34,348 bases of DNA from Candidatus Sungiibacteriota bacterium (lineage in GTDB: Bacteria; Patescibacteriota; Minisyncoccia; Sungbacterales; HO2-52-23): the NCBI GenBank assembly GCA_016206285.1, contig JACQRW010000011.1, positions 1-34,348 on the forward strand. The letters are read 5' to 3'. Shown piece by piece: positions 2,767 to 32,492 of this stretch (its first letter is position 1; every line of letters starts with the position of its first letter). The translations under genes were made by a program, and so were the position numbers. A model generated the notes under the pieces. The model had not been told where the DNA came from and ran no database searches. It saw only the letters and a program-made list of their open reading frames with translations.

Positions 2767-3024
2767 ATGACTACCAAAGTTCAAAAGTGGGGAAACAGTC
2801 TTGCGGTCAGAATCCCTAAAGAAATGATACGGCGTCTTGCCTTGAGAGAGGGAAGCGGTATTGTGGTGCGCGAGCATAAGGACACAATTATTATTCGTCG
2901 GCAAGAACGGCAGGATCGTTTCATAAGTAAAAATGACTGGAGACAATATCTCATTCCCATTAGTCGTAAAAAAGAGAACGTAAGCGGCGCGATAGACCAC
3001 ATTTTATATGGTGCATCTCGTTGA
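2767..3024 (+). CDS. AbrB/MazE/VapB-type antitoxin
   Basis: MTTKVQKWGNSLAVRIPKEMIRRLALREGS: SpoVT-AbrB fold signature; overlaps downstream PIN-domain ORF. Confidence 0.88.
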   Translation: MTTKVQKWGNSLAVRIPKEMIRRLALREGSGIVVREHKDTIIIRRQERQDRFISKNDWRQYLIPISRKKENVSGAIDHILYGASR

Positions 3025-3388
3025 TAGTTCGGTGTGGGTAGCCCTCTTTCTTGACTTTGATACTCAACACCGAAAAGCTGAACAAACAATCCCAAAACTA
3101 TCCGGCATGATCTATCTGCCGTATTGTGTCATTGCGGAGGTTACGACAATACTTGCCTACAAACATTCCAAGCGGTTGGCCGACAATTTTATTGCGTATG
3201 TAAAAGACAATCGCGACCTCAAGATTGTCAATAATGATGCGCTTGACGAAATGGGATTTTACCCGACGATCCCGCATAAACTGTCCTTTACAGATGCAGC
3301 GCTTATTTTTCTCTCCGACAAGCTTGGTGCATCGCTCGTTACATTTGACAAACAACTCGCGCGGATAGCGAAAAAGGTGAAAACATAG
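3008..3388 (+). CDS. PIN-domain ribonuclease toxin (VapC-like)
   Basis: HLVDSSVWVALF, conserved acidic residues, LSFTDAALIFLSDKLGASLVTFDKQL; 17-bp overlap with antitoxin ORF. Confidence 0.88.
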   Translation: MVHLVDSSVWVALFLDFDTQHRKAEQTIPKLSGMIYLPYCVIAEVTTILAYKHSKRLADNFIAYVKDNRDLKIVNNDALDEMGFYPTIPHKLSFTDAALIFLSDKLGASLVTFDKQLARIAKKVKT

Positions 3389-10525: not shown

Positions 10526-10542
10526 AAATAACTGTATTCTGT

Positions 10543-10588
10543 TTATAATCCAGTAATTCAGACGATCGTCCAAAGTTCTGGATTATAG
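10543..10588. repeat. Palindrome family A, left copy (degenerate right arm)
   Basis: TATAATCCAGTAATTCAGACGATCGTCCAAAGTTCTGGATTATA; outer arms and GACGATCGTC core conserved. Confidence 0.85.
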
Positions 10589-10609
10589 ATTATAGTATTG
10601 CTGTTCATT

Positions 10610-11137
10610 ATGAGAAGTGTTCTTGCAAACATCATAGTTGAAAAGTTGGCAGAGCTCGGAGAGGGGACGCTGGAAGCCTTTTTCCCGAAAAACTATGCAT
10701 ACACGGCGCTATGGCGGCCGCTGCTTGGATTGGACAAGCGAAAAAAGATCACCCGGCACAGCGTCTCATCGTGTTTGTGGGAGCTGCAGCGCCAGGGGTT
10801 GGTTGAGCGCAAGGGTCCTGCGCGGAAATCAGCGTGGACGCTTACGAAAAAGGGCAAAGCATATAGTGGTTTGCACAAACGGAAAAAAGAAGAACAGAAA
10901 AAAGACGGTATTACCCGACTCGTGATTTTTGATATTCCCGAACGTGAACGGCGCAAACGAACTATCATTCGGACGGAATTGGTTGCCTGCAAATTCTCAC
11001 AACTCCAAAAGAGCGTTTGGATTGGAGCATATGCCCTGCCAAAAACCTTTATCGCGCTCATGGATGATCTTGAACTTCACGGCAAACTGCATGTTTTCAG
11101 CATTGCACAAAGAGGGACCATCAAGAAAAATCTATAA
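10610..11137 (+). CDS. PaaX-like winged-helix protein with Cas2-like C-terminal fold (copy 1)
   Basis: N-terminal wHTH (ITRHSVSSCLWELQRQGLVERKGPARKSAWTLTKKGKAY) followed by TRLVIFDIPERERRKRTIIRTELVACKFSQLQKSVWIGAY, the Cas2/PaaX-C pattern; the stop codon TAA lies inside the right palindrome. Confidence 0.75.
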   Translation: MRSVLANIIVEKLAELGEGTLEAFFPKNYAYTALWRPLLGLDKRKKITRHSVSSCLWELQRQGLVERKGPARKSAWTLTKKGKAYSGLHKRKKEEQKKDGITRLVIFDIPERERRKRTIIRTELVACKFSQLQKSVWIGAYALPKTFIALMDDLELHGKLHVFSIAQRGTIKKNL

Positions 11138-11177
11138 TCCAGTAATTCAGACGATCGTCTGAATTACTGGATTATAG
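11132..11177. repeat. Palindrome family A, right copy: perfect 46-bp palindrome
   Basis: CTATAATCCAGTAATTCAGACGATCGTCTGAATTACTGGATTATAG. Confidence 0.95.
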
Positions 11178-11218: not shown

Positions 11219-14200
11219 ATGATGGATGACATAGCGCGCGAAAAGAAAAAATCCATTCCGGAGCGGGAAGAGGAGATTTTGAAGTTTTGGGAGGAGCACA
11301 AGATTTTTGAAAAAAGCATGGCGGCGCGCAAGCGCGGCAAGAGTTTCGTATTTTACGACGGGCCGCCGTTTGCGACCGGGCTGCCGCACTACGGGCATAT
11401 CTTGGCGAGCGTGATCAAGGATGCGATCCCGCGCTTTGAAACCATGCGCGGCAAATATGTGGAGCGGACCTGGGGGTGGGACTGCCACGGCCTGCCTTTG
11501 GAAAATTTGGTGGAGCAAGAGTTGAATTTGAAAACGAAAAAAGACATTGAGGAGTATGGGATCGGGAAATTTAATCAGTACGCAAAAGACAGCGTGCTGC
11601 GATATGCGAGCGACTGGAAAAAAATCATCCCGCGCATCGGCCGCTGGGTGGATATGGAGGACGACTACCGCACCATGGACTGGAAGTATTCGGAAACGGT
11701 CTGGTGGATGTTTAAAAATCTCTACGACCAGGGCCTGATTTACGAGGGTTATAAATCCATGCACATCTGCCCGCGGTGCGAGACTACGCTTGCAAATTTT
11801 GAGGTGAGCCAGGGGTACAAGGATATCAAGGATTTGTCGGTGTATGTGAAGTTTAAACTCAAACCAGGCCAAAGCATTGGGTATCTCGGAACGGTACCGG
11901 AAAACTGCTTCATCCTCGCTTGGACAACTACTCCGTGGACGCTGCCGGGTAATGTGGCATTGGCTGTTGGTGTAGATATTAACGGGGATGGTGATATTGA
12001 GTACGAAATGTGGAAGAGAAATGGTGAATACTTCATTGTCGCGCTAAACCGCAGAGAAGCAATCGGTGTTGAGGGAACGCGAGAAATTACACCTATCCCG
12101 GGTAAAGATCTTGTGGGTTTGGAATATGAACCGTTTTTTGATTATTATTCCTCCGATCCAAAACTAAAAAATCGCGAGAATGGATGGAAAATTTATCCGG
12201 CGGATTTTGTGACTACGGATGAGGGAACCGGGGTGGTGCATTTTGCGCCGGCGTTTGGCGAGGAAGACATGGAGATGGGGAAGAAGTTTGATTTGCCGTT
12301 TGTGCAGCATGTGGCGATGAACGGGACATTTAAGCCGGAAGTGAAAGATTTTGCGGGGTTGCCGGTAAAGCCAAAAGGAGAGCATCAGGCGACTGATAAG
12401 AAAATTATCTCGCTGCTTGAATCGCGCAATGTTTTGTTTGCCAAAAAAGAGATCACACACTCGTACCCTCATTGCTGGCGGTGTGATACGCCGCTGCTCA
12501 ATTATGCCGCATCTTCATGGTTTGTGGATGTGACAAAGATCAAAAAAGATTTAGTGGCGAATAATAAAAAAGTTTCGTGGGTACCGGAGCATATTAAGGA
12601 GGGAAGATTTGGCAAGTGGCTGGAAGGCGCGCGCGACTGGGCGATTTCGCGCTCGCGGTATTGGGGTGCGCCCTTGCCGGTGTGGAAGTGCAAGAAATGC
12701 GGAAAGGCGGAGGTGATCGGATCACTGGAGGAGCTGGATAAAAAACAAGGCGGCGCGAAAAATACGTATCTGATCATGCGCCATGGCGAGGCGCTTTCCA
12801 ATGTGAAGAATGCGACTGCCGTGCGGAACGGGAAGTATCCGCTGACGCTCAAAGGCACCGCGCAGGTTGAGAAAACGGCGAAACTGCTCAAGAAGGAAAA
12901 AATTGATCTCGTCGTATCGTCTCCGGTGATGCGCGCCGCCCAGACCGCGGATATTGTCGCCAAAGCGTTGGGAATCAAGACAGTTGATGTTGACGAGCGG
13001 CTTGAGGAAATACGCATCGGCGTTTTTGAAGGCAAGCCCGGCAAAGAATACCAAAACTTTTTTGGTTCTTTTGCGGATCGTTTTACGATGCGCCCCCCGG
13101 GAGGCGAGACGTGGAGCGATCTCCGGGCGCGCATGCTTGATGCGGTTGCGGATCTTGAAAAAAAATACTCGGGCAAAAAGATTTTGATCGTAAGCCATGA
13201 GGCGGCGCTCTGGATGCTCACTGCAGGAGCAGAGGGGCTTACCATCGAGGAAGCGGGAGCGTTGGGGGATAAGCTAAGTACTGGCTTTTTAAAGTTGGCC
13301 GAAGCGCGGAAACTCACATATCGCCAGCTGCCGCGCAATCACGAAGGCGAGACCGATATGCATAGGCCGTACATTGATGCGGTGAAATTTCCGTGCGCGT
13401 GCGGAGGAGAAATGCAGCGCGTACTGGAAGTGTTTGACTGCTGGTTTGAGTCCGGTGCCATGCCATACGGGCAGCAGCATTATCCGTTTGAAAATCAAAA
13501 GCAATTTGATCCGCTTAAACGTGTCGGTTTTCCAGCTGATTTTATTGCTGAAGGACTTGATCAGACGCGCGGATGGTTTTACTCGCTGCTCGTACTTTCT
13601 ACCGCGCTTTTTCGCCAGTCCGCGTACCGCAACGTGATTGTAAACGGGACGATTCTTGCCGAAGACGGGCAGAAGATGTCGAAACGACTCAGAAATTATC
13701 CGGACCCTATGGAAGTTGTACAAAAGTATGGAGCGGATGCCATGCGTCTGTATCTGCTGTCGTCTCCGGTGGTGTACGGAGAGGATTTGAATTTTTCGCT
13801 CAAAGATCTTGATGAGGTGTATAAAAAGTATTCGCTGATTGTTTTGAATACGCTGAACTTTCTTCTGCTGTACCGGGGAAATAAGAAAGCAAAAACATCG
13901 GGCGGTGCTGTCTCAAAACATGTGCTTGACCAATGGATTGTTTCGCGGCTCAACGGCACCGCAAGCGAGGTGACCGAGGCACTGGAGCGATATGAGATCA
14001 GCCGCGCAACCCGGCCGCTGCTCGAATTTGTGCAGGACCTCTCGCTTTGGTATGTGCGCCGAAGCCGGGATCGCATGAAATTTGACTCTCCGGATGGGCG
14101 CGCCGCTCTCGCTACGCTTGAGGCCGTGCTGATTGATCTGTCTCGTCTGACAGCACCTTTCACGCCGTTTCTGTCTGAGATGATCTGGCGCGATCTTGGC

Positions 14201-14767
14201 GCGAAAGAAAAAAAATCAGTGCATCTGAGCGACTGGCCAAAAGCCGACAAACGGCTCGTCAAAAAAGATCTGGAAAAAGATATGGAGGCGGTGCGCAAGA
14301 TCGTGTCCGAAGCGCTCAAGCTGCGCGCAGATGCGGGTATTAAAGTGCGGCAGCCGTTGGCAAAGTTGCAAATTCCAAATGATAAATTACAAAAAGGACT
14401 ATTGGAATTGATTCGGGACGAAGTGAATGTGAAAGAAATCTCATTTCCTGGCCGGACAGGCGGCAAGGAGATGGCACTTGATACCGTGCTCACACAAGAA
14501 TTGCGCGAGGAGGGGATGGTGCGCGAGCTGGTGCGCAATATTCAGGAAATGCGGCGCGACATGGGGTTGAAACCCAAGGATGTGATCCGGTGTCAGTTTA
14601 TCGGAGATGCGACAATCGAGGCTGCGGTAAGCCGGTTGCAAAAGCAGTTGCAAAAAGATGTAAATGCCAAAACCATCATGATCGGGGGCAAATCCGCCAG
14701 TGGGCGGACTAAAGTCGAGCGGGAGATCGAGATAGACCAAAAAAAAATCTGGGTGAGAATCCTCTAG
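11219..14767 (+). CDS. ileS: Isoleucyl-tRNA synthetase with an inserted histidine-phosphatase (phosphoglycerate-mutase-like) domain
   Basis: HYGH and KMSKR motifs, editing domain WTTTPWTLPGN; ~200-aa insert carrying LIMRHGEALSN...SSPVMRAAQTA...EEIRIGVFEG...ILIVSHEAA. Confidence 0.93.
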   Translation: MMDDIAREKKKSIPEREEEILKFWEEHKIFEKSMAARKRGKSFVFYDGPPFATGLPHYGHILASVIKDAIPRFETMRGKYVERTWGWDCHGLPLENLVEQELNLKTKKDIEEYGIGKFNQYAKDSVLRYASDWKKIIPRIGRWVDMEDDYRTMDWKYSETVWWMFKNLYDQGLIYEGYKSMHICPRCETTLANFEVSQGYKDIKDLSVYVKFKLKPGQSIGYLGTVPENCFILAWTTTPWTLPGNVALAVGVDINGDGDIEYEMWKRNGEYFIVALNRREAIGVEGTREITPIPGKDLVGLEYEPFFDYYSSDPKLKNRENGWKIYPADFVTTDEGTGVVHFAPAFGEEDMEMGKKFDLPFVQHVAMNGTFKPEVKDFAGLPVKPKGEHQATDKKIISLLESRNVLFAKKEITHSYPHCWRCDTPLLNYAASSWFVDVTKIKKDLVANNKKVSWVPEHIKEGRFGKWLEGARDWAISRSRYWGAPLPVWKCKKCGKAEVIGSLEELDKKQGGAKNTYLIMRHGEALSNVKNATAVRNGKYPLTLKGTAQVEKTAKLLKKEKIDLVVSSPVMRAAQTADIVAKALGIKTVDVDERLEEIRIGVFEGKPGKEYQNFFGSFADRFTMRPPGGETWSDLRARMLDAVADLEKKYSGKKILIVSHEAALWMLTAGAEGLTIEEAGALGDKLSTGFLKLAEARKLTYRQLPRNHEGETDMHRPYIDAVKFPCACGGEMQRVLEVFDCWFESGAMPYGQQHYPFENQKQFDPLKRVGFPADFIAEGLDQTRGWFYSLLVLSTALFRQSAYRNVIVNGTILAEDGQKMSKRLRNYPDPMEVVQKYGADAMRLYLLSSPVVYGEDLNFSLKDLDEVYKKYSLIVLNTLNFLLLYRGNKKAKTSGGAVSKHVLDQWIVSRLNGTASEVTEALERYEISRATRPLLEFVQDLSLWYVRRSRDRMKFDSPDGRAALATLEAVLIDLSRLTAPFTPFLSEMIWRDLGAKEKKSVHLSDWPKADKRLVKKDLEKDMEAVRKIVSEALKLRADAGIKVRQPLAKLQIPNDKLQKGLLELIRDEVNVKEISFPGRTGGKEMALDTVLTQELREEGMVRELVRNIQEMRRDMGLKPKDVIRCQFIGDATIEAAVSRLQKQLQKDVNAKTIMIGGKSASGRTKVEREIEIDQKKIWVRIL

Positions 14768-21761: not shown

Positions 21762-21805
21762 TACATTACGTAAAATAATTTCCGATAGGTATAAATTTTA
21801 TGTAG
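21762..21805. repeat. Palindrome family B, left copy
   Basis: Contains CCGATAGGTATAAATTTTATGTAG (21782-21805), the exact reverse complement of 22421-22444. Confidence 0.9.
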
Positions 21806-21815
21806 TTTTTGTGCT

Positions 21816-22397
21816 ATGGCCTCTCTCCGTACCATACATGACTACTCAAAAGTAAAAACACTCACGAAGGCAATCCTGGTCGTTCTGGGGACCGGGACCA
21901 TCCTTGCGACTGCCGTCATTGCGCCGAATGCAGTCCAAATTTTGAAGCCATTTCTCGGTGAACGAGGACGGAAGAATCGTGAACGAGAAAGGATTCATCA
22001 AGCGCTTCGCACGCTCCAGCGGCGTCGTCTCATTGAATATATCGAGCGTGATCAAAAAATCCATATTCAGGTCACCGAAGACGGCAAAAAATATGTGCGG
22101 CAGTTTGAAGTGGACACACTTTCATTTCCGCAGGGAGAATGGGATAAAAAATGGCGCATCATTCTTTTTGATATTCCCGAGCAGAGGGGAATCGCCCGAC
22201 GCGCATTTCAAAAACGGCTCCAGTCGCTCGGATGTTTTCCGCTTCAGAGGAGTGTTTTTGTCTATCCGCACGCATGCCAAGATGAAATTGACTTTCTTGC
22301 TTCGTTTTGGGAGGTAGGTGATTATATCCGGTATCTGGAAACTCCTGATTTGGGAAAGTCTGAGGGAGAAGCCAGAAGTTTTTTTGGGTTTCTGTAA
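21816..22397 (+). CDS. PaaX-like winged-helix protein with Cas2-like C-terminal fold (copy 2)
   Basis: wHTH (RIHQALRTLQRRRLIEYIERDQKIHIQVTEDGKKYV) + KKWRIILFDIPEQRGIARRAFQKRLQSLGCFPLQRSVFVYPHACQDEIDFLASFW. Confidence 0.82.
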   Translation: MASLRTIHDYSKVKTLTKAILVVLGTGTILATAVIAPNAVQILKPFLGERGRKNRERERIHQALRTLQRRRLIEYIERDQKIHIQVTEDGKKYVRQFEVDTLSFPQGEWDKKWRIILFDIPEQRGIARRAFQKRLQSLGCFPLQRSVFVYPHACQDEIDFLASFWEVGDYIRYLETPDLGKSEGEARSFFGFL

Positions 22398-32440: not shown

Positions 32441-32447
32441 TCCGCTT

Positions 32448-32492
32448 CTATAATCCAGTAACTGAGACGATCGTCTGAAATACTGGATTATA
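32448..32492. repeat. Palindrome family A, solitary third copy
   Basis: CTATAATCCAGTAACTGAGACGATCGTCTGAAATACTGGATTATA; three mismatches between arms. Confidence 0.92.

Follow-up and report, generated by a model that had tools for sequence, protein, structure and literature searches.

We found that short genes of one family in CPR bacteria, each encoding a winged helix with a PaaX_M/Cas2-like domain after it, lie nearly always between matching copies of a palindrome whose arms are specific to the gene. This arrangement was present in about 90% of 160 genes. The association is almost certainly real, was replicated, and is apparently undescribed; full-text searches of CC-licensed papers turned up no account of it. 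Gene and palindrome together probably constitute a minimal selfish mobile system, consisting of one gene and its cognate palindrome and driven by the PaaX/Cas2-like protein.

The window, a stretch of 34,348 nucleotides, is contig C7 of the source genome, G000 (754 kb, 91% complete). In a profile scan of genome contigs built on 13 closer family sequences, the nearest named relatives of G000 were Candidatus Sungiibacteriota/Sungbacteria MAGs, that is, CPR/Patescibacteria. The features of interest in the window are as follows.

10542..10589, no strand assigned: 5' palindrome of unit A, a degenerate copy with core ACGATCGT at 10562-10569
10610..11137, plus strand: unit A gene, winged helix and PaaX_M/Cas2-like domain, 175 aa (Pfam, AlphaFold)
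11132..11177, no strand assigned: 3' palindrome of unit A, 46 bp without a mismatch; its core ACGATCGT is at 11151-11158
21767..21806, no strand assigned: 5' palindrome of unit B, core CCGATAGG, arms unlike those of unit A
21816..22397, plus strand: unit B gene, paralogous winged helix and PaaX_M/Cas2-like protein, 193 aa
22421..22460, no strand assigned: 3' palindrome of unit B, in the opposite orientation to the 5' copy, core CCTATCGG
32447..32492, no strand assigned: solo copy of the unit A palindrome, 93% alike, between an MBL-fold gene and an adenylate-kinase-like gene

The first-pass annotation had described unit A as a gene with a perfect palindrome at its 3' end and a partly degenerate copy at its 5' end. 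We confirmed both, the former as 23 + 23 nt and the latter as a copy 89-92% alike. The reading frame starts at ATG 10610 or at an alternative TTG at 10598, and the 3' palindrome contains and supplies its stop, TAA at 11135-11137, as had been claimed. It was also correct that no T-run follows this palindrome. That annotation overlooked the third copy of the unit A palindrome within the window and five further copies elsewhere in G000, which bring the family to 8 sites, and it likewise overlooked unit B and four paralogues elsewhere in the genome. G000 has six winged helix and PaaX_M/Cas2-like genes in total, two of them within the window. The unit B gene sits between ftsZ and a ribonucleotide reductase gene, and its 3' palindrome has a solo copy elsewhere, at contig C22:6176.

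Two other features of the window were recorded. The IleS open reading frame downstream of unit A (11219-14767) has a His_Phos_1 domain (Pfam; histidine phosphatase, E 4e-37) at residues 518-680, within the synthetase catalytic region, and positions 2767-3388 encode a MazE/AbrB-type antitoxin and PIN-domain toxin pair.

Unit A had been proposed as a candidate mobile or self-regulating unit, for which one would expect homologous genes in relatives to be palindrome-flanked as well, further palindrome copies to be dispersed, and empty sites to exist. We examined the flanks of 94 genes from the relatives of G000. The left and right repeats matched at a score of at least 11 in 90% of these genes versus 17% of mismatched-gene pairs, and at a score of at least 15 in 81% versus 1.4%. 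A palindrome was present in at least one flank of 91.5% of the genes, compared with 3.2% of 463 control windows from the same loci. In the replication set, 66 independent CPR genes from Giovannoni-, Moran-, Kaiser-, Wolfe-, Harrison-, Davies- and Berkel-bacteria and other lineages, the flanks matched at the higher score in 83% versus 2%. Homologues in relatives are thus flanked as expected. Among asymmetric flanking pairs 13 were direct and 8 inverted, with no fixed inversion, and the core of the 5' palindrome lay a median of 43 nt upstream of the first ATG.

The palindromes are 28-54 bp long and share a nearly invariant core, C-G/T-A-T-C/A-G, in which the C at -3 and the G at +2 are conserved at 99-100%; the usual cores are CGATCG, CTATAG, CGATAG, CGGTCG and CGGCCG. 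The arms are gene-specific, and only proteins more than about 65% identical have similar ones. Since arms are alike only for close proteins and are matched on both sides of the gene, they change fast, and together on the two sides, around a fixed core. When we compared how the winged helix and the Cas2-like domain track the arms, there was no difference between the two. In each family a constant outer arm of 8-12 nt is separated from the constant core by a variable spacer of 5-8 nt. In most families examined the spacer positions are mostly non-complementary, which fits a dimer reading duplex DNA better than recognition of a hairpin.

The layout had been likened to REP/RAYT systems, in which a rayt gene is flanked by REP palindromes that keep compensatory changes (PMC2817692). 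As far as layout goes the comparison stands: there is one gene between two short palindromes, solo copies lie in extragenic DNA, and the repeats change fast, are matched to the gene and have one gene copy per repeat family. The sites themselves, in which spacer complementarity is mostly not kept, look like recognition sites in duplex DNA and not like the hairpins used by RAYTs. Unlike REP/RAYT, moreover, the present palindromes are longer with an invariant centre, the repeat families have no common GT(A/G)G head, there is no fixed inverted orientation, and the hosts are CPR bacteria rather than gammaproteobacteria. We rejected RAYT membership because the 94 proteins contain no Y1/HUH domain and the repeats have neither a GTAG head nor a fixed inversion.

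The reading of the unit A protein as a winged helix with a Cas2-like segment was supported by Pfam (PaaX_M, E 5e-15; Cas2, a weak match). Its AlphaFold model (pLDDT 85) matched both folds, with E. coli PaaX (8a39) the best structural match and Cas2 among the weaker ones. PaaX_M was matched in all 94 family proteins and PF07848 in one, and no Y1/HUH or other transposase family was among the Pfam matches of these proteins. The proteins resemble PaaX repressors in that a PaaX_M Cas2-like domain comes after a winged helix, but they are only about 180 aa long, are missing the C-terminal PaaX domain, and are multicopy with dispersed palindromes. Nor are they linked to phenylacetate genes, the neighbours being argS/ileS, ftsZ/nrdJ and others. 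Membership of the PaaX equivalog was rejected at 22.6 bits against a cut-off of 264.6. With CRISPR Cas2 they share a ferredoxin-like domain, the FDIP...QKSV motifs and a conserved Asp; unlike Cas2 they are fused to a winged helix and fall below the Cas2 cut-offs (21.3 versus 23.8 bits). The reported absence of cas1 extends to the whole genome: we found Cas1 nowhere in G000 and a Cas1 match in 5 of 55 relatives. A role in CRISPR adaptation was rejected because G000 is without Cas1.

Across the 94 sequences, whose mean column identity is 22%, G82, D108, R117 and S135 are invariant. D108 is aligned with the Asp that ends the first strand of Cas2, a residue with a catalytic role in that protein. 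The invariant Asp108 would be the residue behind a putative metal-dependent nuclease activity of the Cas2 type.

The distribution of the family is patchy. It was present in 67 of 193 sampled CPR genomes at 1-11 copies, and the relatives of G000 carried 0-13 gene copies each. There was no conserved partner gene; at most 5 of the 94 loci had a neighbour in common, and all such neighbours were housekeeping genes. A phage or plasmid origin was rejected, as the family had no matches in viral contigs, phages or plasmids. Within the genus, the genes are inherited mostly vertically, as orthologue pairs in G000 and its sister species G001 show. There is one gene per palindrome family within G000, and thus no sign that the gene itself amplifies.

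The palindromes are far more numerous than chance would give. The ACGATCGT octamer occurs 45 times in the 754 kb of G000 versus 2 for its reversed control, and about 36 of the 45 sites are palindrome centres belonging to at least seven arm families; the dispersed copies expected of a mobile unit do exist. Some arm families in G000 match a resident gene, and others are orphans for which the gene was found only in relatives or nowhere. The orphans include L115, L119, L160 and L165 (arm TTAACAAATTATG); their cognate genes may lie in the missing 9% of the assembly or may have been lost. The gene-rich relatives G001 and G004 have 42-60 ACGATCGT sites and the four gene-less relatives have 3-18; in G005, which carries three genes, most of them of other core types, there are 11. 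Of about 23 solo sites, 8-10 lie between convergent genes and none between divergent ones, according to mechanical ORF calls that make these counts approximate.

Empty sites were found in relatives at orthologous junctions, both for solo copies and for gene units. Seven solo sites sampled in G000 were all empty in G001, which belongs to the same genus. The copy between UvrC and DnaJ is cleanly absent over about 75 bp, and the others lie at RuvC/TyrS, ClpP/PGM, TpiA, TsaD/DHFR, cysS and one more junction. The G001 orthologue of the unit A gene has different arms (TATATCCCAT vs TATAATCCAG), so the copies of the unit A family in G000 most simply arose after the two species split. For gene units, the map-ruvX junction holds a unit in G000 and G004 and has 3-70 bp between the genes in several relatives. 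The family genes at this junction, L025 and L107, are sisters; the empty site in G001 may therefore reflect loss of an old insertion, and its polarity is uncertain. The argS-ileS junction is occupied in G000, G001 and G004 and nearly empty in G003 and G005. In G009 it holds a solo perfect palindrome only, with arms that match a G009 gene elsewhere. These relatives, at 75-80% DNA identity, are too diverged to fix an insertion boundary or a target-site duplication.

We also noted that certain junctions recur among the loci of several genomes: argS-ileS (L023, L036, L100 and L105), map-ruvX (L025, L039, L066 and L107) and ftsZ (L020, L053 and L076; plus L177). The same housekeeping junctions are apparently occupied by different branches of the family, which suggests preferred sites.

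Two palindromes lie in frame inside mfd on contig C14 of G000 (L008:2039 and L167:1265). Both probably belong to one family with arm CATCTTAACAATT, of which the second has only part. They encode peptides of the HF(L/S)DDRQKIV type, and one of them is a clean in-frame insertion of 14 aa that is absent in G001. Palindromic repeats that insert in frame into protein genes are known from Rickettsia as RPEs (PMC10969869). The mfd copies resemble these in kind; the RPEs differ in measuring about 150 bp, and in the system described here a cognate gene is flanked by the repeat. We know of no cognate gene for RPEs.

There were traces of exchange between half-sites. In G001, identical spacer halves recur with different partners in five cases, and the hybrid palindromes L242:646 and L232:371 have two arms from different families. 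A column-shuffle test of reshuffling gave P values of 0.09, 0.02 and 0.016 for three families, which are only weakly significant, so that half-site reshuffling is suggestive only. Taken with a hybrid site, it weakly suggests rejoining at the core. At C32:18314-20385 in G001 (L191, L097), two palindromes of one family beside a PaaX/Cas2-like gene enclose three passenger genes, one of which codes for a TrmB-like regulator; at this place G000 has the gene alone. A 1.9-kb direct repeat of half a palindrome on G001:C18 proved to be an ordinary tandem duplication.

Matched flanks, an invariant core with fast-changing arms, solo copies, empty sites and patchiness together lead us to favour a selfish mobile system. 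In such a system the protein would act as the mobilising enzyme, with the Cas2-like domain as its catalytic part. A dimer would set two winged helices on the gene-specific arms and a Cas2-like dimer on the common core; a constant core with variable arms is the trace expected of a catalytic centre with separate recognition parts. DNA would be broken and rejoined at the core, and palindrome copies would spread, through putative intermediates and by a putative route, to new intergenic sites and occasionally into genes in frame. Two copies would be maintained around the gene itself, and the 5' copy may also repress it. That the Cas2-like domain cleaves the core is a possibility we hold at somewhat less than even chances. 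Cas2-like domains can lack catalysis, as in PaaX and in CRISPR Cas2 acting as a structural subunit, which counts against a mobilising enzyme. The mostly vertical inheritance within the genus, the single gene per family in G000, the weak significance of half-site reshuffling, the map-ruvX gap as a possible loss, and the lack of matches in viral contigs, phages and plasmids also weigh against the mobile reading. We are equally tentative about the fullest version of the proposal, in which PaaX-like proteins would be stand-alone site-specific recombinases or transposases that cut the duplex palindrome at the CNNNNG core and rejoin half-sites. They would represent a new branch of the Cas2 fold with a chemistry of its own, and would form very compact autonomous elements of one ~550-bp gene and a ~46-bp palindrome, widespread in CPR bacteria, with a specificity that evolves by matched changes in winged helix and arm.

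An ordinary PaaX-like autoregulator, with the flanking palindromes as operators and the solo copies as a small regulon or as chromosome-organising sites, appears unlikely to us. The PaaX repressor binds operators that are palindromic, and this general knowledge, the best fold match being to PaaX, the short distance of the 5' core from the first ATG, and the retention of arms and core in solo copies while spacers drift, as for binding sites, all speak for it. It leaves unexplained an equal palindrome copy downstream of the gene and families without a gene in an assembly that is 91% complete. The absence of solo sites in the sister species, the in-frame copies in mfd and the lack of solo sites in divergent promoter regions (0 of about 23, by the same approximate calls) also argue against it. 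With T-runs after only 2 of 68 3' palindromes (3.2 expected) and no solo sites between divergent genes, the palindromes are neither terminators nor ordinary operators. The idea that they are bidirectional terminators or mRNA hairpins of an ordinary gene, to which the solo copies between convergent genes lend some support, is largely refuted, and it offers no explanation for gene-specific arms, a common core or an equal 5' copy.

Quite improbable, too, is an IS200/IS605- or RAYT-like element whose palindrome is read as a single-stranded hairpin in replication, with a Cas2-like fold in place of HUH. Both folds are ferredoxin-like, which counts in its favour. So does the layout, like that of rayt flanked by REPs (PMC2817692), but the HUH/Y1 domain is found in 0 of 94 proteins and the spacers are mostly non-complementary, against the compensatory changes kept in REP palindromes (PMC2817692). 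We consider it highly improbable that the protein is a hairpin-telomere resolvase or a site-specific recombinase that rearranges or protects the chromosome without being mobile. Such an enzyme would fit the length and perfection of the palindromes, their fixed core, the exchange of half-sites with one hybrid site, and the three G001 passenger genes between two palindromes of a family. However, some carriers, such as G005, are single-contig and so do not require several linear ends, and selfish spread accounts better for the sporadic occurrence and the orphan families.

To our knowledge, no mobile element driven by a protein of the PaaX/Cas2 fold is known, and full-text searches of CC-licensed papers found none; we also know of no such compact elements described in CPR bacteria. 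If the selfish mobile system is real, CPR bacteria would possess a large family of minimal mobile elements, and the evolution of DNA specificity could be studied on hundreds of protein-palindrome pairs that have diversified in nature. Orphan palindromic elements, those of Rickettsia among them, would gain a testable model in a palindrome that is recognised by a protein and also inserts in frame into genes. Such a system would also assign a DNA-mobilising role to the common fold of PaaX and Cas2, and would bear on the origin of CRISPR adaptation proteins.
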